This document shows positions 7,098 to 20,066 of a stretch of DNA of 64,000 nt, in pieces (the first letter of the stretch is position 1; each line of letters starts with the position of its first letter). Source of the DNA: an uncultured Actinomycetes bacterium (GTDB lineage: Bacteria; Actinomycetota; Coriobacteriia; Coriobacteriales; Atopobiaceae); the NCBI GenBank assembly GCA_900315165.1, contig OMXZ01000001.1, positions 1-64,000 of the forward strand, given 5' to 3'. Position numbers and translations under genes: made by a program. The notes under the pieces are model-generated. The model did no database searches. It was not told the DNA's origin and worked only from the letters and a program-made list of their open reading frames with translations.

Positions 7098-8924
7098 ATG
7101 GCTAGGCTTCACGTGATGGAGCGCAGCGAGGAGCAGCGGATTATGGACGAGCTGCACGCTGCGGTCGGCCGCCGGCTGGCCGTCAGCTCGCTGGCACCCT
7201 GTCCGGTCGAGTTCACGATGTCGTTCATCGACATGTGCTCGACCCAGAGCTGCGGCAAATGCACCCCCTGCCGCGTGGGGCTACGCACCCTGCGTCACAT
7301 GCTGAGCGACGTGCTGCGCGGGCACGGGACGATGCAGACCGTCAACGACATCGAGCGCCTCGCGCAGGCAATTTACCTTTCGGCCGACTGCGCAATCGGG
7401 TTCGAGGCGGGCGCGATGGCACTCGAGGCGGTGCGCGGCTTCCGCGACGACTTCGAGCACCATGTGACCTTCCACGCCTGCGGATTCGAGCAGTCCGTCA
7501 AGGTCCCCTGCGTCTCGGGCTGCCCGGCGGGCGTGGACATCCCCGGCTATATCGCGCTAGTCGGGGCCGGGCGCAACGCCGACGCCGTCCGCTTGATCCG
7601 CAAGGACAACCCCCTGCCCGTGGTGTGCGGCCTCGTGTGCGAGCACCCCTGCGAGATCAACTGCCGCCGCGGCATGGTGGACAACCCCATCAACATCCGC
7701 GCGATCAAGCGCTACGCCACCGAGCACATGGAGCACGACTACACGCCCCGCCTCGCCCCCAAGACGGGCAAGCGCGTTGCCGTCGTCGGCGGCGGCCCGG
7801 CCGGCCTGTCGTGCGCCTACTACCTCACGCTCATGGGCCACGACGTCACGATCTACGAGGCCCGCCGCCACCTGGGCGGCATGCTGCGCTACGGCATCCC
7901 CAACTACCGCCTGCCGCGCGAGCGCCTGGACGAGGAGATCGGCTGGATCCTGAACCTGGGCGTGAAGGCGGAGCTCGGCCACAAGGTGGAGGGCGACCTC
8001 GCGCAGCTCCGGCGCGACTACGACGCTGTCTACCTGGCCGTCGGCGCTCATGCGGACCGCAAGCTCGGCCTTCCCGGTGAGGATGCCGAGGGCGTCGAGA
8101 GCGCCGTGGCCATGCTGCGCGCGATCGGCGACGACGAGATCCCCGACTACCGCGGCCAACGCGTGTGCGTGATCGGCGGCGGCAACGTGGCCATGGACGT
8201 GGCCCGCTCGGCCGTGCGCGCCGGCGCCGACAAGGTCTCGATCGTCTACCGTCGCCGCGCAGCGGACATGACGGCGCAGGACGAGGAGATCGCCGGTGCC
8301 CAGGCCGAGGGGTGCGAGCTGCTCGAGCTGAACGCCCCGGTGCGCATCGAGCACGACGAGGCGGGCAAGGTCTGCGGCCTCGTCGTCCAGCCGCAGATCA
8401 TCGGCTCCTACCGCGGCGGCCGCCCGTCGCCCCGGCCGGCCGACTCCCCCGAAGTCACCATCCCCTGCGAGCGCGTGATGGTCGCGATCGGCCAGGCCAT
8501 CGAGAGTCTGCCCTTCGAGGAGCAGGGCGTCGCCGCCAACCGCGGCCGCATCCAGGTGGCCGAGGACTCATCGGTCCCCGGTATGGACGGCGTCTTCTCA
8601 GGCGGCGACTGCCAGACTGGCCCCGCCACGGTGATCCGCGCCGTGAACGCCGGCAAGGTCGCGGCGGGCAACATCGACAACTACCTGGGCTTCGACCACA
8701 AGATCACGCTCGACGTGGACCTGCCGCCCGTCACCTCCGCCAGCATCGGCGAGTGCGGCCGCTGCGAGACCGTCCTGCGCGAGGCGGAAGACCGCAAGCA
8801 CGACTTCGACATGATCGAGAAGGGCCTCACCCGCGAGGAGGTCGAGCAGGAGTGCTCCCGCTGCCTGCACTGCGACCACTTCGGCATGGGCGCCTTCCGC
8901 GGCGGAAGGGAGCTCCAATGGTAA
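7098..8924 (+). CDS. Hydrogenase-associated NAD(P)-linked flavoprotein (NuoF-type FeS domain fused to GltD-like domain)
   Basis: A 608-residue two-part protein. Residues 40-110 match the C-terminal 4Fe-4S domain of NuoF/HydB (Cys47, then SCGKCTPCRVG). The rest is a glutamate-synthase small-subunit (GltD)-like FAD/NAD(P) oxidoreductase: CPAGVDIPGY near 140, a first dinucleotide site VVGGGPAGLSCAY near 229, a second VIGGGNVAMDVARS near 357, and a final Cys motif CSRCLHCDHF near 590. It overlaps the hydrogenase gene by 7 nt. The NuoF FMN/NADH-binding half is absent, so pyridine-nucleotide binding must come from the GltD part. HydDB-style group A2 enzymes are described as glutamate-synthase-linked; I infer the same architecture here. 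Confidence 0.85.
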   Translation: MARLHVMERSEEQRIMDELHAAVGRRLAVSSLAPCPVEFTMSFIDMCSTQSCGKCTPCRVGLRTLRHMLSDVLRGHGTMQTVNDIERLAQAIYLSADCAIGFEAGAMALEAVRGFRDDFEHHVTFHACGFEQSVKVPCVSGCPAGVDIPGYIALVGAGRNADAVRLIRKDNPLPVVCGLVCEHPCEINCRRGMVDNPINIRAIKRYATEHMEHDYTPRLAPKTGKRVAVVGGGPAGLSCAYYLTLMGHDVTIYEARRHLGGMLRYGIPNYRLPRERLDEEIGWILNLGVKAELGHKVEGDLAQLRRDYDAVYLAVGAHADRKLGLPGEDAEGVESAVAMLRAIGDDEIPDYRGQRVCVIGGGNVAMDVARSAVRAGADKVSIVYRRRAADMTAQDEEIAGAQAEGCELLELNAPVRIEHDEAGKVCGLVVQPQIIGSYRGGRPSPRPADSPEVTIPCERVMVAIGQAIESLPFEEQGVAANRGRIQVAEDSSVPGMDGVFSGGDCQTGPATVIRAVNAGKVAAGNIDNYLGFDHKITLDVDLPPVTSASIGECGRCETVLREAEDRKHDFDMIEKGLTREEVEQECSRCLHCDHFGMGAFRGGRELQW

Positions 8925-10780
8925 AGACGCAGGAAAAGACACCCGTGGCGGCCGCCACCGTCACCCTCAGCGTGGACGGCCGCGAGGTCACCGTGCCCGC
9001 CGGCACCACGATCCTGGACGCCTGCCGTGCCGCCGGGGCCGACGTCCCCACCCTCTGCTACCTGCGCGAGCTCAACGAAATCGGCTCCTGCCGCATCTGC
9101 GTGGTGGAGGTCGAGGGCGCCCCGCGCCTCGTCGCCGCCTGCAACAACGTCGCCGGCGAGGGAATGCGCATCCTCACCAACAGCCCGCGCGTCCGCCTGG
9201 CCCGGCGCGAGAACATGATGCTTTTGCTCTCCCAGCACAACTCCTCGTGCACCACTTGCACGCGCTCGGGCAACTGCACGCTGCAGTCCGTGGCGGTTGA
9301 CCTGGGCGTGATCGACTTCCCCTATCCCAAGATCATCGACCCCTCCGACTGGCCAGCGGACTTCCCGCTGATCCGCGACAACACCAAGTGCATCCGCTGC
9401 ATGCGCTGCATCCAGGAGTGCGAGAAGGTCCAGGCTTCCAGTATCTGGGGCCTCACCAACCGCGCGACACACACCCGCGTGGGCGTGGCGGGCGGCCTCG
9501 ACATCCGCGACGTGGACTGCACGCTGTGCGGCCAGTGCATCACCCACTGCCCCACCGGCGCCCTGCGCGAGCGCGACGACGTAATGCGCGTCTACGAGGC
9601 GCTCGCCGATCCGACCGTCACCACGATCGTGCAGATAGCGCCCTCGGTCCGCACGTCCTGGGGCGAGTACTGGGGGCTCTCCAAGGAGGAGGCCACCGTC
9701 GAGCGCCTGGTCGCGGCCCTGCGCCCGATGGGCTTCGACTACATCGTCAACACGGACTTCTCCGCCGACCTCACGATCATGGAGGAGGGCACCGAGCTGC
9801 TCGCCCATATGAAGAACGCGGACAAGGCCGCGGCCGCCGGCTCGGACCCCGCTGCGGCCGCGTCGCCCGTCTATCCGATGTTCACCTCCTGCTGCCCGGG
9901 CTGGGTCCGCTTCGTCAAGGCTCACTACCCCCAGCTCGTCGATGACGTCTCGACCAGCAAGAGCCCGCAGCAGATGTTCGGCGCGGTGGTCAAGAGCTAC
10001 TACGCCGAGCTGCTGGGCCTCGACCCGCACAAGGTCTTCTCTGTCTCGATCATGCCCTGCGTGGCCAAGAAGGCCGAGGCCGGCTATGCCAACATGAACG
10101 ACGCCTGCGGCGATCCCGACGTGGACTGCGTGCTCACGGTGCGCGAGGTCATGCGCATGCTGCGCGCCGACCACGTCGACCCGCGGCTGCTGGCGGACGA
10201 CGCCTTCGACGAGCCGCTCGGCTACGGCACGGGCGCGGGCATCATCTTCGGCGCGACGGGCGGCGTGATGGAGGCGGCCCTGCGCACGGCCCACTACCTC
10301 GTGACCGGCAAGGCACCGGCTGATGATATGTTCGCCGACGTCCGCGGCGAACGCGGCTGGAAGGAGGCCACCTTCGACCTGGCAGGCACTCCGGTGCGCG
10401 TGGCCGTGGCGAGCGGCCTGGCCAATGCGGACGCGCTTTGCCGCGCGGTCGTGTCGGGCGAAGTCGCCTACGACTTCGTCGAGGTCATGGCCTGTCCCGG
10501 CGGCTGCGTGGGCGGTGGCGGTCAGCCCATCCATGACGGCGAGGAGCTCGCCGGTTCGCGCGGAGAGGTGCTTTACGGCCTCGACCGTGTGGCCAAATAC
10601 CGCAATTCCTACGAGAACCCGGCGATCGTCCACTGCTATAACGAGTATCTCGGCGAGCCCCTGTCCGAGCGTGCCGAGCAGCTGCTCCACACCGACCAGC
10701 ACGCCTGGAAGATGCCCAGCGAGTGGATTCGCGCGGCCGAGGACGCGCCCGACGCTGAAGACCCCGGCGTGGACTGGTAA
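8918..10780 (+). CDS. [FeFe] hydrogenase, group A type catalytic subunit
   Basis: A 620-residue enzyme for reversible H2/proton conversion. In order: an N-terminal 2Fe-2S domain (Cys47, Cys58, Cys61, Cys75); a His-Cys3 FeS site (HNSSCTTC, residues 107-120); two 4Fe-4S motifs (CIRCMRCIQEC at 158-168, CTLCGQCITHC at 201-211). All three H-cluster motifs follow: TSCCPGW at 323, MPCVAKKAE at 379 and EVMACPGGCVGGGGQP at 522. A small-subunit-like tail ends near HCYNEYLGEP. All expected cluster ligands are present, including the proton-relay Cys of TSCCP. The gene overlaps the flavoprotein gene, so electrons probably pass to or from NAD(P) through that partner. Cytosolic. Confidence 0.95.
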   Translation: MVKTQEKTPVAAATVTLSVDGREVTVPAGTTILDACRAAGADVPTLCYLRELNEIGSCRICVVEVEGAPRLVAACNNVAGEGMRILTNSPRVRLARRENMMLLLSQHNSSCTTCTRSGNCTLQSVAVDLGVIDFPYPKIIDPSDWPADFPLIRDNTKCIRCMRCIQECEKVQASSIWGLTNRATHTRVGVAGGLDIRDVDCTLCGQCITHCPTGALRERDDVMRVYEALADPTVTTIVQIAPSVRTSWGEYWGLSKEEATVERLVAALRPMGFDYIVNTDFSADLTIMEEGTELLAHMKNADKAAAAGSDPAAAASPVYPMFTSCCPGWVRFVKAHYPQLVDDVSTSKSPQQMFGAVVKSYYAELLGLDPHKVFSVSIMPCVAKKAEAGYANMNDACGDPDVDCVLTVREVMRMLRADHVDPRLLADDAFDEPLGYGTGAGIIFGATGGVMEAALRTAHYLVTGKAPADDMFADVRGERGWKEATFDLAGTPVRVAVASGLANADALCRAVVSGEVAYDFVEVMACPGGCVGGGGQPIHDGEELAGSRGEVLYGLDRVAKYRNSYENPAIVHCYNEYLGEPLSERAEQLLHTDQHAWKMPSEWIRAAEDAPDAEDPGVDW

Positions 10781-12545: not shown

Positions 12546-12752
12546 GACGCCAAGGAGTTGCTCCGGCTTGTCGGCGGCAAGGAGAACATCGCGGCGGTCA
12601 CGCACTGCATGACCCACATGCGACTCGCCCTGCAGGATCCCGCGAAGGCCGACGTCAAGGCCGCCTCGGCCAACAACCAGAACAAGCTCCAGCAGCTCAT
12701 GGGCGCCATCGCCGAGGTCTTCGCCCCGCTCGCCGCGCTCGCTGCGCCCGCT
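12546..12752 (+). pseudogene. Remnant of a trehalose-type PTS EIIBC gene
   Basis: The frame begins DAKELLRLVGGKENIAAV, a typical EIIB N-terminus, with the phosphorylatable Cys in THCMTHMRLAL. After about 38 residues the rest of EIIB is missing and the frame jumps to NKLQQLMGAIAEVFAPLAAL, which looks like the linker and first membrane helix of EIIC. Everything after that is gone. At the front a stop codon (TAA) directly precedes the EIIB sequence, and no ATG or ribosome-binding site remains beside the operator. So the gene has lost its start, half of EIIB and nearly all of EIIC. Confidence 0.7.
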
Positions 12753-12798
12753 ACAGAGCAGGCGAGGGTCGGGCCCTCCCGACCTGCGAGTTTCTTCT

Positions 12799-12847
12799 CG
12801 GACCCCCGTCTGCTCTGTATCCCATCCGCAGAGAGGACGGGGGTCCG
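12799..12847. repeat. Nested inverted repeat
   Basis: Outer arms CGGACCCCCGTC / GACGGGGGTCCG pair perfectly over 12 bp; inside, CTCTG / CAGAG can pair. The inner sequence CTGCTCTGTATC recurs about 80 bp downstream. It lies in the gene-free stretch after the PTS remnant. Confidence 0.55.
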
Positions 12848-13009
12848 GCTATGCCGACCTGGTCTTTTTCCGCCCGACCCCTCTCTGCTCTGTATCGTCC
12901 TCCTGTGCAGATGGGGTTAAAGCTTGGGCAGATGAAAACTAAAGTATGGGCGGGGCGAAAAAATAAATAGTAGGCCGGGCTAAGACGGGCCATCGTCATT
13001 TTTTTCTCC

Positions 13010-13206
13010 CACACCCCCATATCGTTGGTAGAGCGAAACCAACAATGAGGGGGTGTGACCAGAAAAACCGCAGGTCGCGAGATTCACACCCCCGTATCCT
13101 TGGTAATTCGAATACCAACGATGCGGGGGTGCGAGCCATAAAAGCCCAGTTGAGCGGGGCGACACCCCCGCATCGTTGGTAGAGGGTTACCAACGATGCG
13201 GGGGTG
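13010..13206. repeat. Array of three long hairpins
   Basis: Three related palindromes in a row: 13010-13057 (20-nt arms, three mismatches), 13087-13131 (19-nt arms, two mismatches) and 13163-13206 (19-nt arms, perfect; arm CACCCCCGCATCGTTGGTA). Loops are 6-8 nt. The spacers between units are unrelated in sequence. It fills the gap between the PTS remnant and the LpdD-IDI gene. The short open frames crossing it are by-products of the repeat. It could be a REP/MITE-type element or a strong 3'-end structure for the minus-strand operon. Confidence 0.75.
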
Positions 13207-13307: not shown

Positions 13308-14375
13308 CTATCGGGAGGCCAGGACCAGACGGAGGGCCTCCGGCAGCCAGGCCGTATAGCGATCGGGATGCTCCGCGACGTCGCGCGACAGGTCGTTCAG
13401 CACCACCCAGCGCCAGTCCATAACCTCGGCGGGGTCGGGATTGAGCGTGAAAGCGGGATCAGGGTCGGGGTCGGAGGCGAGGGCAGGGTTGAGTGCGGGG
13501 CCGGGGTCGGACGCACCGGCCCACTCCCCCACCAGCACGTGGTCGTACTCGTACTCGGTGATGCCGTTCGCGAAGGCGGCGCGGTAGACGAAGCTGCCGA
13601 CCTCGTTGCAGTCCACGCCTGAAACGCCCAGCTCCTGGGCCAGACGGCGGGAAACGGCCTCGGCCAGGGTCTCGCCCGCCCGCGGATGCGAGCAGCAGGA
13701 GTTGGTCCACAGGCCGCCCGAATGGTACTTGCCCAGCGCGCGGCGCTGCAGGAGCAGGCGGTCGCCGTCGAGCAGGAAGACCGAGAAGGCACGGTGGAGC
13801 TGGCTGCGGCGGTGCACGTCGAGCTTCTCACCGGTCCCGACCTCGCGGTCCGCAAAGTCGACGAGGATGAGACGGTCGCGCGCCGCGGGGTCGGCGGATG
13901 GGTCGCCCGCCAGCTTCGCGACCAGCGCATCCACACAGGCGTCCACGTTGGCGCCGATAGTCGCGAGGTCGTCGGCCGTGGCGTCCTCCACATGGATGCC
14001 GGCCGCCACGCTCACGGCGCACCCGCACGCGATCGCGAGCCGGCGCGCCACGCCCCGCGCGGCCTCGGCATCCTTGTGGCCGGGCAACGTGGCGTCCCAC
14101 ACGTCGGCACGCGAGAGCTGCCGTCCGCCCAGCTCGGGGCCGGGAGCCGCCAGCGCCTGCCCGCCCACGTGGGGCACCTCGCCGCCGTAGAGATAGCAGG
14201 CGAGACCCCCGCCGTCGGGCGCGGCCGCGGCCTCTAGGGTCACGCCACAGCGCCCCTCCCCCGCATGGGTCGCGAAGCGGCGCAGGGCCTGCGAATCGCT
14301 CGCGGCCTGCATGCTGTATGCAGCCTGCAGGCCACCCGCGACCTGGAAATCGCTTGCGGCCAAAGGATCGCCCAT
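13308..14375 (-). CDS. Fusion of LpdD-like prenyl-flavin helper domain and type 1 isopentenyl-diphosphate isomerase
   Basis: A 355-residue two-domain protein. Residues 42-152 resemble LpdD, the small partner found with UbiD decarboxylases: GGEVPHVGGQALAAPGPEL, then LPGHKDAEAARGVARRLA and AGIHVEDATADDL. Residues 165-355 are a type 1 IPP isomerase: GLWTNSCCSHPRAGE carries the catalytic Cys (227/228), GETLAEAVSRRLAQELG is the Nudix-like helix, and TEYEYDHV holds the second acidic catalytic site. A Pro/Asp-rich insertion (about 288-316) lengthens the isomerase. The enzyme would make dimethylallyl diphosphate, the prenyl source for UbiX. The start codon overlaps the ubiX stop (TGATG) after GGGAGG. 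Residues 1-40 are low-complexity. The isomerase call is near certain; the LpdD call is good. Confidence 0.85.
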   Translation of the reverse strand: MGDPLAASDFQVAGGLQAAYSMQAASDSQALRRFATHAGEGRCGVTLEAAAAPDGGGLACYLYGGEVPHVGGQALAAPGPELGGRQLSRADVWDATLPGHKDAEAARGVARRLAIACGCAVSVAAGIHVEDATADDLATIGANVDACVDALVAKLAGDPSADPAARDRLILVDFADREVGTGEKLDVHRRSQLHRAFSVFLLDGDRLLLQRRALGKYHSGGLWTNSCCSHPRAGETLAEAVSRRLAQELGVSGVDCNEVGSFVYRAAFANGITEYEYDHVLVGEWAGASDPGPALNPALASDPDPDPAFTLNPDPAEVMDWRWVVLNDLSRDVAEHPDRYTAWLPEALRLVLASR

Positions 14376-14941
14376 CAGCCCTCCCAGGGACGGAACCGGT
14401 CGTACGTAATGCCGAACTGCATAAGGATCTTGCCGACAATATGGTCCACCTGGTCCATGGTTGTCTCGCAGCCATTATAGAAGGTGAGCATGGGCGGCAG
14501 GATCACGTATCCGTCCTGCGCAGCCTGCAGCATGTTGCGCAGGTGGGCCTGGTTGAGCGGCACCTCGCGCGGCACGAGCACGACGCGGCGCCCCTCCTTG
14601 CGGCAGACGTCGGCAGCCCGCACGAGCAGGTCGTCGTCGTAGGCGTTGACCATGCCGGAGAGCGACTTCATCGAGCAGGGGCACACGATCATGCCGTCGG
14701 TCACATAGGAGCCCGAGGAGATGGCCGCCGCGAGGTCGTGGTTGTCGTAGACGACGTCGGCCAGCGCCTCGGCGTCGGCGGCCGTCACGTCGCACTCGCG
14801 GTCGAAGATCACGCGCGCACCGTCGGAGATGATGAGGTGGGTCTCGACATCGGGCACGTCGCGCAGGGCCTGCAGCAGGCGATAGCCCATCTGGGCGCCG
14901 GTGGCGCCGCTGATGCCGACGATGATCTTGCGCTTGGGCAT
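14375..14941 (-). CDS. ubiX: UbiX-family flavin prenyltransferase
   Basis: A 188-residue enzyme that joins a dimethylallyl group to FMN to make prenylated FMN, the cofactor of UbiD decarboxylases. The N-terminal IIVGISGATGAQMGYRLL is the flavin-binding start typical of UbiX/Pad1; SSGSYVTDGMIVCPCSMKSL and LVPREVPLNQAHLRNM are the other family hallmarks. AAAGGAG before the ATG at 14941 fixes the start; the longer frame reads into a hairpin repeat. It is translationally coupled to the LpdD-isomerase fusion and lies in line with ubiD and a transporter. Confidence 0.93.
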   Translation of the reverse strand: MPKRKIIVGISGATGAQMGYRLLQALRDVPDVETHLIISDGARVIFDRECDVTAADAEALADVVYDNHDLAAAISSGSYVTDGMIVCPCSMKSLSGMVNAYDDDLLVRAADVCRKEGRRVVLVPREVPLNQAHLRNMLQAAQDGYVILPPMLTFYNGCETTMDQVDHIVGKILMQFGITYDRFRPWEG

Positions 14942-14985
14942 GGGAGCTCCTTTGGGGATGGGACAAGGGTCGGACAAAAGGGGGT

Positions 14986-15016
14986 CGGACAAAAGGGGAC
15001 GTTTCCCTTTTGTCCG
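14986..15016. repeat. GGACAAAAGGG hairpin repeat between transporter and ubiX
   Basis: Perfect 12-bp arms CGGACAAAAGGG / CCCTTTTGTCCG around a 7-nt GACGTTT loop. A partial direct copy of the left arm lies just before it at 14972-14984. It sits 45 nt upstream of the ubiX start, inside the operon. Confidence 0.75.
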
Positions 15017-15073
15017 TTCGGACAAGAAGGCCGCCCCGGGCGGAGGAGAAAGCCCGGGGCGGCAAGGTTTGTC

Positions 15074-16468
15074 TTACATCAGGCCCATGGCGTGGAACCA
15101 AGCGGCCTCGACCAGCACGACCGCAAACACGACGGCGGTCAGCGGGATGCCCATGCGCATGGCCTCCTTGGCGGAATACCCGGCAGCGTCCTCGCCCGAG
15201 CCCACGAGCACGGCCAGGTTGTGGAAGGGCAGGATGTAGTGGATGTTGATCGCGGAGAATACCATCATGCTCACGGCCAGAGGGCTGATGCCGGTGCCGG
15301 CCACGAAGGTCACAAAGGCGGGCACGCAGATGCCAAGCACGGCCATGACGGAGCCCATGAACATGTGGATGACCACGGTGATCAGGGCGATCAGCAGCGC
15401 GAGGACGAAGATGTTGTCGGGCACGGTGCTGGGCAGGATGACGTTGGCGATCCGGGCGTTCATGCCGGTCTCGCCGCCCACGGTGCCGATGGCCATGGCC
15501 GCGGTCAAAAAGACGAGCGTGTTGATGGGCACGGAGTCCCAGCTCTTGGGCGTGAGGACCTCGCCGATGAAGGGCAGGGCCATGCCCGCGCCGATGATCA
15601 GGGTCACAAATCCGATGTTGAGGCCCGTGATGCCCTCGGTCATCCAGAGGACCACGGCGATGGCGAGCCAGACGACCACGCGCTTCTCCGTGACGGAGAC
15701 GGGGCCCAGCTCCTCCTGCTTCTGGCGCACGACGTCGAGGTCGAGTTTGAACTCGCTCTCGGGCTTGAAGAGGGCGAGGCCCAAGCCCAGGGTGGCCAGC
15801 GTGGCGACCAGCATGGGGACGCTCATATAGACGAACCACTGGACGAAGGTGCACTCCACACCCGAGTCGCCCACGACGAGCGGGTTCAGGGTGGCGTCGC
15901 CCGTGAGGAAGAACATGGAGCCCGGGGCCGCGGCGGCGAAGGTCAGGAAGCCGACCTTGATCTTGTCGTTCTTGGACATGCCGGCGGCGTCGCAGATGGC
16001 CTGCATAACTGCCAGGATCATGAAGGCGCGCGGGAAGGGGTGCGGGATGATGAGCGACAGGATCACCGTGAGGGCAAAGATGCTGATCACGAGTGAGTTC
16101 CAGTCGCGCACGAACTTGAGCGAGAACCAATAAGCGATGCGCTCGCCCAGGCGCGAGTCCTTAACGGCCGTGGCGATGAGGTAGGCGCCGATGACCATCC
16201 ACATGGTGAGGCCGGTCCAGCTCTTGAAGACGACCGTGCCGTCGGCGGTGCCGGTCAGCATGAGAAGCGCCAGGTAGACAGCCGAGACGAAGGCGGGCTG
16301 GGCCACGCCGCAGGCCCACCAGACCACGGTCATGAGGGTGAGCGAGAGGCACATCTGGCCCTGGCTGCTGATCTCACCTAGGACACCCAGCGGCGCCACG
16401 AGCACGAGCGCGAAGACCGCGATGCCCGCGAGGAAGCCGATGCCCCTCTTGGATGCTAGTTTGGTCAT
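15074..16468 (-). CDS. DASS (SLC13)-family anion transporter
   Basis: A 464-residue membrane protein with about eleven to twelve hydrophobic segments. The divalent-anion:Na+ symporter pattern shows in SWTGLTMWMVIGAYLIATAV near residue 83, the paired hairpin regions with LTGDATLNPLV and FLTAAMAIGTVGGETG, and a conserved C-terminal INIHYILPFHN. These carriers import di- or tricarboxylates and related acids. AAAGGAAC precedes the ATG. Its place between ubiD and ubiX suggests it brings in the decarboxylase substrate or exchanges substrate for product; that is inference. Confidence 0.85.
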   Translation of the reverse strand: MTKLASKRGIGFLAGIAVFALVLVAPLGVLGEISSQGQMCLSLTLMTVVWWACGVAQPAFVSAVYLALLMLTGTADGTVVFKSWTGLTMWMVIGAYLIATAVKDSRLGERIAYWFSLKFVRDWNSLVISIFALTVILSLIIPHPFPRAFMILAVMQAICDAAGMSKNDKIKVGFLTFAAAAPGSMFFLTGDATLNPLVVGDSGVECTFVQWFVYMSVPMLVATLATLGLGLALFKPESEFKLDLDVVRQKQEELGPVSVTEKRVVVWLAIAVVLWMTEGITGLNIGFVTLIIGAGMALPFIGEVLTPKSWDSVPINTLVFLTAAMAIGTVGGETGMNARIANVILPSTVPDNIFVLALLIALITVVIHMFMGSVMAVLGICVPAFVTFVAGTGISPLAVSMMVFSAINIHYILPFHNLAVLVGSGEDAAGYSAKEAMRMGIPLTAVVFAVVLVEAAWFHAMGLM

Positions 16469-16496: not shown

Positions 16497-16543
16497 GGGA
16501 CAAAAGGGGATGTAGGACAAAAGGGGACGTTTCCCTTTTGTCC
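16497..16543. repeat. GGACAAAAGGG hairpin repeat between ubiD and the transporter
   Basis: Arms GGACAAAAGGG (16515-16525) and CCCTTTTGTCC (16533-16543) are exact complements around GACGTTT. An extra GGGACAAAAGGGGA copy lies at 16497-16510. It starts 29 nt before the transporter start codon, so it is in the transporter's leader. Confidence 0.75.
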
Positions 16544-16555
16544 CAGTCCTCCCTT

Positions 16556-18064
16556 CTAGTAGGCAAGCTCCTTGGCCCACTTGTCCTGGTCGATCTCCAG
16601 GAAGTGGCAGCGGTGGAAGTCGTCCTGCAGGTCATAGGGGACGGTGCAGTCGAAGATGGCCTTGCAGGCGATACCGTGCTCGCGAATCGACGGGTCGAAC
16701 TTGGGGTCGTTGGAGGGATCGAGCACGTGGCAGTGGCAGCCAGGGATCGTGATGAGGTCGCGGTCGGCCTGGAAGCGCGTGGTCATGGCCCACATGACGT
16801 CGGACATGTCGAAGATGTCCACGTCTGGGTCCACGAGGAAGACGTGCTTGAGCTCGGAGAAGGCCGAGAAGGCGAGCATGGCGGCGTTGCGCTGACGACC
16901 CTCGTCGTTCTTGTTGGACTTCTTGAACTGCAGGATCGCCACGAACTTGCCACCGCCGCAGGGCGCCGCGTGCACGTTGAGCAGGCGGCCCGGGATCGCG
17001 GTCTCGACCATCTTGTAAATCGAGGCCTCGGTGGGGATGCCGGCCATGGAGACGTGCTCGTGGGACGGGCCGATGCAGGACTGCATGATGGGGTGCTGGC
17101 GGGTGGTAACGGCTGTCACGTGGATCACGGGCAGGGCGGGCTTGGCGTCGCCGGTGTAGCCGGGGAACTCGGGCATGGCCTTGCCCGTGTTGGTGTTGAT
17201 GTCCTCGCGGACGGTGTCGGTGATGGAGAGGTAGCCCTCGAGCACGTACTCGGCGTTGGCAATGCATTTCTCGGGAATGGTCAGGCAGTCGGCCAGCTCC
17301 ACGGGCTTGCCGCGCAGGGCGCCGGCAATCTGGAGCTCGTTGTAGCCGAGCGGCGTGGTGGGCGCCTCGAAGCCGGCGCACATGTAGACGGCGGGGTCCA
17401 GGCCGATGGAGATGGAGATAGGCATGTCCTTGCCCTGGGCCTTGTACTTGTCGAAGAAGGCGCCCAGGTGACGGCTGCCCGGCGTGATCCACATGCCCAG
17501 GGTGTCGCGGGACTCGATGCACAGGCGGTGGATCGTGACGTCGGAGGTGCCGTTCTCGGGGTCGGTCCCCATGCAGAGGCCCATGGTGATGTAGGGACCG
17601 GCGTCCTCGGGGGTGTTGGTGGGCGCGGGGACGAGCTTGCGCAGGTCGAAGTCGGGGTCGGTGGCCTTGTAGACGACCTCCTGGCAGTCGATGTGCTTGC
17701 CCTCGCCGATCATAACGGGCGGGATGGTGTGCTGGAGCTTCTTGCCCATCTCGAGGCCGAGGAACTGCTCGTCCATGCCGATCAGCTGGGACACGCGACG
17801 GCGGCTCGCGAGCAAGCCGATGGCGACCTTGGCGTCGGGGAAGCCCTTGACGTTGTTGAAGACCATGGCCGGACCCTCCTTGGTCGGGCGCGCCACGGTT
17901 CCGCCAGCGCCAACGTGACGATAGACGCCCGACACCTCGGCGTCCGGATCGACCTCGGTATCGGTCTCGAGCAGCTGGCCCGGCTGGGTCCTCAGGTAGT
18001 CCAGCGCACTGCGCAGGTCGTGGATCTCCGACGCTTGAATCTCTGCTTCCTTGCTCTCTGCCAT
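16556..18064 (-). CDS. ubiD: UbiD-family prenyl-FMN-dependent decarboxylase
   Basis: A 502-residue enzyme that removes CO2 from an aromatic or alpha,beta-unsaturated acid using prenylated FMN. Family marks: GTSDVTIHRLC with Arg180, GSRHLGAFF with His199 as a likely metal ligand, GFEAPTTPLGYNELQIAGAL and NAEYVLEGYL, where Glu272 and Glu277 match the acidic pair of the E-R-E catalytic site. AAAGGAGG before the ATG at 18064 fixes the start. The substrate is unknown. LpdD partners are known from phenolic-acid decarboxylases such as gallate decarboxylase, so a hydroxybenzoate is a fair first guess. First structural gene after the MerR regulator. Confidence 0.93.
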   Translation of the reverse strand: MAESKEAEIQASEIHDLRSALDYLRTQPGQLLETDTEVDPDAEVSGVYRHVGAGGTVARPTKEGPAMVFNNVKGFPDAKVAIGLLASRRRVSQLIGMDEQFLGLEMGKKLQHTIPPVMIGEGKHIDCQEVVYKATDPDFDLRKLVPAPTNTPEDAGPYITMGLCMGTDPENGTSDVTIHRLCIESRDTLGMWITPGSRHLGAFFDKYKAQGKDMPISISIGLDPAVYMCAGFEAPTTPLGYNELQIAGALRGKPVELADCLTIPEKCIANAEYVLEGYLSITDTVREDINTNTGKAMPEFPGYTGDAKPALPVIHVTAVTTRQHPIMQSCIGPSHEHVSMAGIPTEASIYKMVETAIPGRLLNVHAAPCGGGKFVAILQFKKSNKNDEGRQRNAAMLAFSAFSELKHVFLVDPDVDIFDMSDVMWAMTTRFQADRDLITIPGCHCHVLDPSNDPKFDPSIREHGIACKAIFDCTVPYDLQDDFHRCHFLEIDQDKWAKELAY

Positions 18065-18303: not shown

Positions 18304-19179
18304 CTAGGCGGTGCGGACCTTGATCTCCACGCGGCTGAAGTCCGCGGCGTGCTCCTCGGTATGGAAGACCGTGTCGAACAGGCACCGGTCGATCGCGTCG
18401 CCCTCGGGCTCGAGCCCGCGCTCAGCCATCCACGCGAGCAGGCGCCGCTCGCCGGCCAGGTCGTAGGGCATGGCGTAGTGGTACATGGTGGCGTACACGC
18501 CGGCGGGGATGTCGATCACGGTGGCGCCCGGCACCTCGCGGTCATGCGGCAGGACGACGATCGAGCCGGCGCCCACCAGCGGCGTCTCGCTCCCCAGCGC
18601 GGCCACCCGCACGACCGACCCGAAGCCGCGCGAGGGAATCATCCCTGCGTCCAAAAGCTGGCCCCAGGCCTGCATGAGGGCGAGGTGGAGCTTGCCCGGG
18701 TCCATCTCCTGTGTGGGAAAGGGCACGTAAATGGCCCGGCGCGCATCGATCCACTGCACCTGGGGTAGGTCGTCGCCCAACTCGCGCGCCTCGGCGTGCA
18801 GGAAGAGCTCGCTCAACTGGTCGATCTCCTCGGCCTGCAGACTGAGGCGCGCCACCTCCCGGCGGATGTCGGACGCGCGCTCCCCCAGCACCGCCGCCAC
18901 GGCCCGCGGGTCGCGCCGGCCCCTCATGAGCTCGCGAATCTGCGCGAGCGGCACGCCCGTGGATTTGAGCAGGCAGATAAACCGCAGGTAGGGAAGCTGG
19001 TCCACGGAATAGTAGCGGTAGCCCGCATCGTTCACATAGGCCGGGTGGAGCAGGCCGTTCTTGTCGTAGAGGATCAGCGTCTGGCGCGAGACCCGCACCA
19101 TTGCCGCCATGTCCGAGATCTTGATAAGGCCGTCCGTCTTCGCACCGCGTCCCATCCCGCGGCCCTGCGTGACCTGCAT
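18304..19179 (-). CDS. MerR-family regulator with effector-binding domain
   Basis: A 291-residue regulator. Residues 18-90 are the MerR winged helix (LIKISDMAAMVRVSRQTLIL, then YYSVDQLPYLRFICLLKSTG), followed by a coiled-coil dimerisation helix to about 135. The C-terminal 150 residues look like a GyrI-type effector-binding domain, as in BmrR-like proteins that sense small molecules. ATG at 19179 follows GAGGGA by 8 nt; a GTG two codons earlier is too close to that site. It is in line with ubiD, 239 nt downstream, and is the likely substrate-responsive switch for the decarboxylase operon. Confidence 0.85.
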   Translation of the reverse strand: MQVTQGRGMGRGAKTDGLIKISDMAAMVRVSRQTLILYDKNGLLHPAYVNDAGYRYYSVDQLPYLRFICLLKSTGVPLAQIRELMRGRRDPRAVAAVLGERASDIRREVARLSLQAEEIDQLSELFLHAEARELGDDLPQVQWIDARRAIYVPFPTQEMDPGKLHLALMQAWGQLLDAGMIPSRGFGSVVRVAALGSETPLVGAGSIVVLPHDREVPGATVIDIPAGVYATMYHYAMPYDLAGERRLLAWMAERGLEPEGDAIDRCLFDTVFHTEEHAADFSRVEIKVRTA

Positions 19180-19219
19180 GCACACCGTCCCTCAAGTCCC
19201 GCGACGTCGGAGGGCGCCG

Positions 19220-19951: not shown

Positions 19952-19969
19952 CGTCGCCGCGGCCAAATC

Positions 19970-20066
19970 GGACAGTAGGGGACGTTTTCCTTTTGTCATT
20001 TCCCCTTTGTCACGCTTCCTCCGACAACGGGGAAGCGTGACAAAGGGGAAACGTCCCCTACTGTCC
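19970..20066. repeat. 97-nt double hairpin of the GGACAAAAGGG repeat family
   Basis: Outer arms GGACAGTAGGGGACGTTT (19970-19987) and AAACGTCCCCTACTGTCC (20049-20066) are exact complements. Inside, TCCCCTTTGTCACGCTTCC (20001-20019) and its complement (20031-20049) form a second perfect 19-bp stem. Only a 13-nt one-sided bulge breaks the helix. The GGGACGTTT..CCCTTTTGTC core matches the other family copies. Confidence 0.8.

Follow-up and report, generated by a model that had tools for sequence, protein, structure and literature searches.

Within the window (the whole 64,000-nucleotide stretch of DNA analysed here, from an uncultured bacterium of the Atopobiaceae), a single gene encodes an LpdD-like domain fused to a complete type 1 isopentenyl-diphosphate isomerase (IDI), in a cluster that also contains ubiX and ubiD. 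The source organism is a gut or rumen bacterium. The explanation that we favour, and which we hold to be reasonably probable, is that the fusion is a two-domain supply protein for prenyl-FMN (prFMN), which would combine the making of DMAPP with the carriage of prFMNH2 around UbiX. It is based on the identity of the two domains, their intact active-site residues, the position of the gene in the operon, the recurrence of the gene pair and the existence of two independent fusions. Read along the minus strand from 19185 to 13308, the order of the genes is MerR, ubiD, DASS transporter, ubiX and fusion, with the following coordinates:

18304..19185, minus strand: MerR-family regulator, a probable local regulator (PF13411, 2.3e-14)
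16556..18061, minus strand: ubiD, closest to AroY protocatechuate / 3,4-dihydroxybenzoate decarboxylase (600 bits to 5o3n/5ny5; PF01977, 2e-52)
15074..16468, minus strand: DASS-type anion transporter (PF00939, 2.3e-32)
14375..14941, minus strand: ubiX, flavin prenyltransferase (TIGR00421, 209.9 bits for a cut-off of 108.9; closest solved structure 1sbz)
13308..14375, minus strand: lpdD-idi fusion gene, a single 355-codon frame with an ATG start and a TAG stop (355 aa)
13902..14288, minus strand: LpdD-like domain, residues 30-158 of the fusion (PF21758, LpdD profile, fold match)
13311..13880, minus strand: type 1 IDI domain, residues 166-355 (curated profiles, residues, fold)
13440..13511, minus strand: DP-rich insert in the IDI domain, residues 289-312

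The initial annotation had described this gene as one open frame joining an LpdD-type domain to a complete type 1 IDI, coupled to ubiX in a ubiX/ubiD setting, and all of these elements are borne out. Most differences from the nearest relative fall at third codon positions in both the LpdD domain (49 of 85) and the IDI domain (68 of 127), which indicates that both are read as protein, and chance is excluded as the source of the frame. The last base of the ubiX stop codon, 14375, is also the first base of the fusion start codon (TGATG), a GGAGG lies four bases 5′ of the fusion ATG, and ubiD is on the same strand.

The N-terminal domain matches PF21758 (PAC_bac) at residues 44-155 with an E-value of 4.9e-24 (84.7 bits for a cut-off of 27). 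This family is named after its likeness to proteasome assembly chaperones, but here the match can be equated with LpdD, because a profile built from relatives retrieves the LpdD crystal structure 8po5 as its first match (E 1.6e-9) and because the predicted fold (pLDDT 88.7) has the same Lactobacillus plantarum protein as its best PDB match (E 1.7e-7, TM 0.69/0.73). Residues H69, H100 and D102, aligned with H35, H61 and D63, the Mn ligands of LpdD (PMC10865409), are candidate Mn ligands, so that the window domain and L. plantarum LpdD share both the fold and the residues of the Mn site. LpdD is already published as a prFMNH2-binding chaperone (PMC10865409) and, by analogy, the window domain would also bind prFMNH2. 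The earlier remark that LpdD-type proteins accompany UbiD decarboxylases understates the role of a protein with a published chaperone function. Both LpdD proteins are encoded beside a UbiX; however, that of L. plantarum stands alone with ubiD elsewhere on the chromosome, whereas that of the window is fused to IDI and has ubiD in its own cluster.

The C-terminal domain gives a NUDIX match at residues 193-343 of the fusion and passes both NCBIfam equivalog models for IDI, NF002995 (158.5 bits, cut-off 127) and TIGR02150 (112.6 bits, cut-off 105.8); its fold matches that of the E. coli IDI (1nfs, TM 0.83-0.85 of target). Window residues H188, H194, C228, H230 and E248 correspond to H25, H32, C67, H69 and E87 of E. 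coli Idi, and Y264, E274, E276 and W343 to Y104, E114, E116 and W161. The E. coli Idi sequence and its residue roles served as the reference, and the stretch displayed in the alignment agrees with them. The window domain retains the full catalytic and metal-binding set of the E. coli enzyme, catalytic Cys included, and would isomerise IPP to DMAPP. While sharing their fold and these residues, it differs from E. coli Idi and human IDI1 by the additional N-terminal chaperone domain and by the DP-rich insert, which is mostly of low confidence in the model and absent from the aligned relatives. Moreover, known type 1 IDIs serve general isoprenoid supply, whereas this one is encoded in a prFMN operon.

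Residue 168 of the window UbiX is a His, at the position of H164 in the O157 UbiX. UbiX proteins with His or Gln at this key position use DMAPP, while some bacterial UbiX need DMAP; PaUbiX binds isopentenyl monophosphate without reaction, a dimethylallyl donor being strictly needed (PMC6541611). The window UbiX therefore probably uses DMAPP, as far as can be judged from this residue. The key residue is His in all UbiX compared from clusters with either canonical or Cys-less IDIs (see below), with no split between the two, so that it does not single out the window.

Since the UbiD of the cluster is closest to AroY, it probably acts on an acid of the catechol or gallate type, such as a protocatechuate- or gallate-like aromatic acid, with the closest relative as the sole guide. 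The cluster does not qualify as a VdcBCD vanillate decarboxylase by the curated cut-offs, which the scores for VdcB (246.7, below 290) and VdcC (441.9, below 650) both miss. A MerR neighbour is also present in four of the related loci described below (L039, L040, L042 and L043). Between the transporter and ubiX lies a terminator-like GC-rich hairpin (window 15031-15043), so that ubiX and the fusion may share a transcript that does not include ubiD. A palindromic repeat, GGACAAAAGGGGACGTTTCCCTTTTGTCC, occurs in gaps between operon genes (window 14984-15015, 16512-16543, 19967-19998 and 20035-20066).

In the mechanism that we propose, the IDI domain would convert IPP into DMAPP, raising DMAPP when the operon is on, UbiX would join DMAPP to FMNH2 to give prFMNH2, and the LpdD domain would bind prFMNH2 and hand it over to the AroY-type UbiD of the same cluster. 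Fusing the two domains would fix equal amounts of the donor-making enzyme and of the cofactor chaperone. It may also hold both next to UbiX, a contact that could allow channelling of the donor. The initial annotation had the prenyl precursor delivered to the decarboxylase system itself; this should be corrected, the donor going to UbiX and prFMNH2 to UbiD via LpdD.

To place the fusion among its relatives, 398 Coriobacteriia genomes were scanned and the neighbourhoods of the matches fetched. In five Atopobiaceae genomes, lpdD and idi are separate direct neighbours, often overlapping, in the same order as in the window: uncultured Coriobacteriaceae bacterium RUG13628 (L039), uncultured Olsenella RUG004 (L040), Olsenella sp. 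kh2p3 (L041), Atopobiaceae bacterium (L042) and L046. Three more loci (L043, L057 and L078) have ubiX-idi without lpdD close by, and in seven loci from genomes coded f11 and f12 (L098, L179-L184) the distance from idi to ubiX-lpdD-ubiD is no more than about 4 kb. Atopobiaceae genomes with ubiX-idi (L195, L196 and L197) also have an LpdD that is distant or on another contig, of the type found in the second family (f3, see below) and without an IDI domain. Among the 140 Atopobiaceae genomes, IDI-1 is present in 16 of the 18 with UbiX and in 38 of the 122 without it (Fisher 4e-6, not corrected for kinship). All 18 UbiX-bearing genomes have LpdD, including two (G304 and G395) from which IDI is absent.

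The pairing is also found beyond the Coriobacteriia. Only about 12 of 391 Clostridia genomes have a strong IDI-1 match, but one of their loci (L252) reads ubiD-DASS-ubiX-lpdD-idi, the exact order of the window, and another (L253) ubiX/lpdD-idi. In the latter, a frame directly 5′ of idi (8822-9415, minus strand) joins a C-terminally shortened UbiX to an N-terminally shortened LpdD, which corresponds either to a deletion or to an assembly error. None of 188 Synergistota genomes carries an lpdD-idi fusion; in one Synergistaceae genome idi is 3.4 kb from lpdD. In a Synergistaceae prFMN cluster (L110, 5645-8300), lpdD and idi are separated by genes for an AAA ATPase and for a VWA protein with a weak resemblance to CoxE. 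Only separate IDI matches were obtained outside Coriobacteriia in an Actinomycetota sample of 396 genomes. The occurrence of lpdD and idi side by side in unrelated bacteria suggests that the making of the prenyl donor is a built-in part of the decarboxylase system.

Within the Coriobacteriia, the same domain pair was found fused in 18 of the 67 genomes of family f3, single-contig genomes among them; f3 is a second family of the order, probably Coriobacteriaceae. In a tree of IDI domains, the window groups with four unfused neighbours (99/92), with the f3 fusions in a group of their own. For the LpdD domains, the tree gives RUG13628 as the sister of the window (95/87), and supported branches force two changes of the fused label. 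As the window sits with unfused relatives and apart from f3 in both trees, the fusion arose at least twice, and a single ancient fusion common to the window and f3 is ruled out. That this pair was fused twice independently argues more strongly for a functional link than a single event would. Together with the lpdD-idi neighbours across phyla, the two fusions support such a link, and the initial annotation was right in its idea of a linked cofactor supply. A tree with Clostridia added did not discriminate between a single and a multiple origin of the cluster idi.

Alternatively, the IDI could be the one that balances isoprenoids for the whole cell, captured in the operon and fused through a fortuitous deletion, in which case it would have no particular connection with prFMN. 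The fusion contains the only IDI found in the source genome, which has one IDI-1, one UbiX and IspH, and in which no type 2 IDI (IDI-2) was found. In many relatives, a solitary idi is located well away from ubiX. Weighing against the favoured explanation, many Coriobacteriia have idi but lack a ubiX in its vicinity, which implies that IDI has other uses, and two Atopobiaceae genomes have UbiX and LpdD but no IDI, as noted above. In addition, IspH is the last enzyme of the MEP route and gives both IPP and DMAPP; organisms with this route already make DMAPP through IspH, so that IDI should be helpful rather than essential. As for the rival, IDI-1 matches and a full UbiX are both absent from the four other genomes in the genus of the window, so that members of the genus can apparently do without IDI-1, and the system seems to be either complete or missing. 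The recurrence of lpdD-idi or ubiX-idi pairs in several lineages and a second phylum, and the second independent fusion, also argue against a captured housekeeping enzyme, an explanation that we consider unlikely although it retains some weight.

The IDIs encoded in the clusters of f3, f11 and f12 make up a distinct clade, in which Ala replaces the catalytic Cys (motif D-S/T-C-A-G-H) and Asp occupies the position of N64, and are nearly always found in prFMN clusters. This Cys-less IDI-like clade comprises fused (L090-L097 and L271) and unfused (L098 and L179-L184) members. Of six scored with the NCBIfam models, five pass NF002995 and none passes TIGR02150. From these sequences, the cluster IDIs of f3, f11 and f12 may no longer be isomerases and may have changed activity, which does not concern the window copy. 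Since the f3 IDI has lost the catalytic Cys, isomerase activity may not be what links lpdD and idi in all lineages. NudJ and other Nudix enzymes can convert DMAPP to DMAP, and have been discussed as a source for prFMN (PMC12359138). As some UbiX need DMAP, a hydrolase role is possible in the Cys-less clade.

A joint reading can be formulated for both kinds of fusion, in which a prenyl-diphosphate enzyme and a prFMNH2 chaperone are joined around UbiX and channel the C5 donor to the cofactor, the Cys-less IDI domain of the sister lineages having a new activity in the same pathway, e.g., as a DMAPP-to-DMAP hydrolase; we regard this reading as rather doubtful. It seems quite improbable that the window domain itself performs another prenyl step, as a DMAPP pyrophosphohydrolase making DMAP, for instance, or as a binding domain. 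The DMAP requirement of some bacterial UbiX (PMC6541611), the production of DMAP from DMAPP by Nudix enzymes such as NudJ (PMC12359138) and the substitutions at the catalytic Cys and N64 in f3 and f11/f12 would fit such a role, but in the window domain the catalytic Cys and all other IDI residues that were compared are intact, and the key residue of the accompanying UbiX is the one associated with DMAPP use.

At the junction between the two domains, about 41 bases are absent from the window compared with RUG13628, in which this stretch carries the stop of one gene and the start of the next, and the linker of the fusion agrees with the start of the relative's IDI (GDPAARD). The misassembly by frameshift envisaged in the initial annotation is ruled out by this alignment, which shows no one-base slip. 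An assembly or sequencing error merging two overlapping genes is very improbable: the source genome is fragmented (80 contigs, 88.7% complete), the joined frame is known from one assembly of the species and the two genes are unfused in the nearest relatives of the window, but a deletion of about 41 bases is more than a single-base error, the linker agrees with the IDI start of the relative, and single-contig genomes of another family also carry the fusion.

Returning to the favoured explanation, a supply protein for prFMN, the window operon resembles the AroY/LpdC UbiD-UbiX hydroxybenzoate decarboxylase operons in having an AroY-like UbiD and UbiX in one cluster, together with LpdD, and differs from them by a prenyl-donor enzyme, of which there is no mention in the LpdD or PhdC papers cited here. 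Similarly, in the PhdABC phenazine decarboxylase operon an extra gene beside ubiX and ubiD aids cofactor activation; PhdC, a maturase that resembles flavin reductases, acts after UbiX (PMC13040415), whereas the IDI of the window would act before it. The LpdD chaperone, IDI and UbiDX are each known, but we found no paper linking IDI to UbiX, prFMN or gallate decarboxylase clusters in a search that covered subscription literature thinly, and IDI in prFMN clusters would be a new element of the UbiDX-LpdD system. The fusion was equally new to the initial annotation; it is not a one-off, though, since the f3 family supplies 18 further genomes with a fusion of separate origin. The earlier interpretation as a whole is therefore partly supported.

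Some UbiD decarboxylases are difficult to produce in active form in a foreign host, since prFMN loading and maturation fail (PMC10865409). Should IDI prove to be a regular partner of UbiX and LpdD, these bacteria would have solved the supply of the donor by operon design and gene fusion. The fusion could then be used directly to activate recalcitrant UbiD enzymes, and the source of the prenyl donor of UbiX could be tested in a natural setting.

Downstream of the fusion gene, the window contains inverted-repeat units with a spacing of 75-76 bp (12754-12896 and 13011-13206). A short frame adjoining a GntR/UTRA regulator (12558-12920) encodes a PTS EIIB remnant (PF00367, 31 residues).
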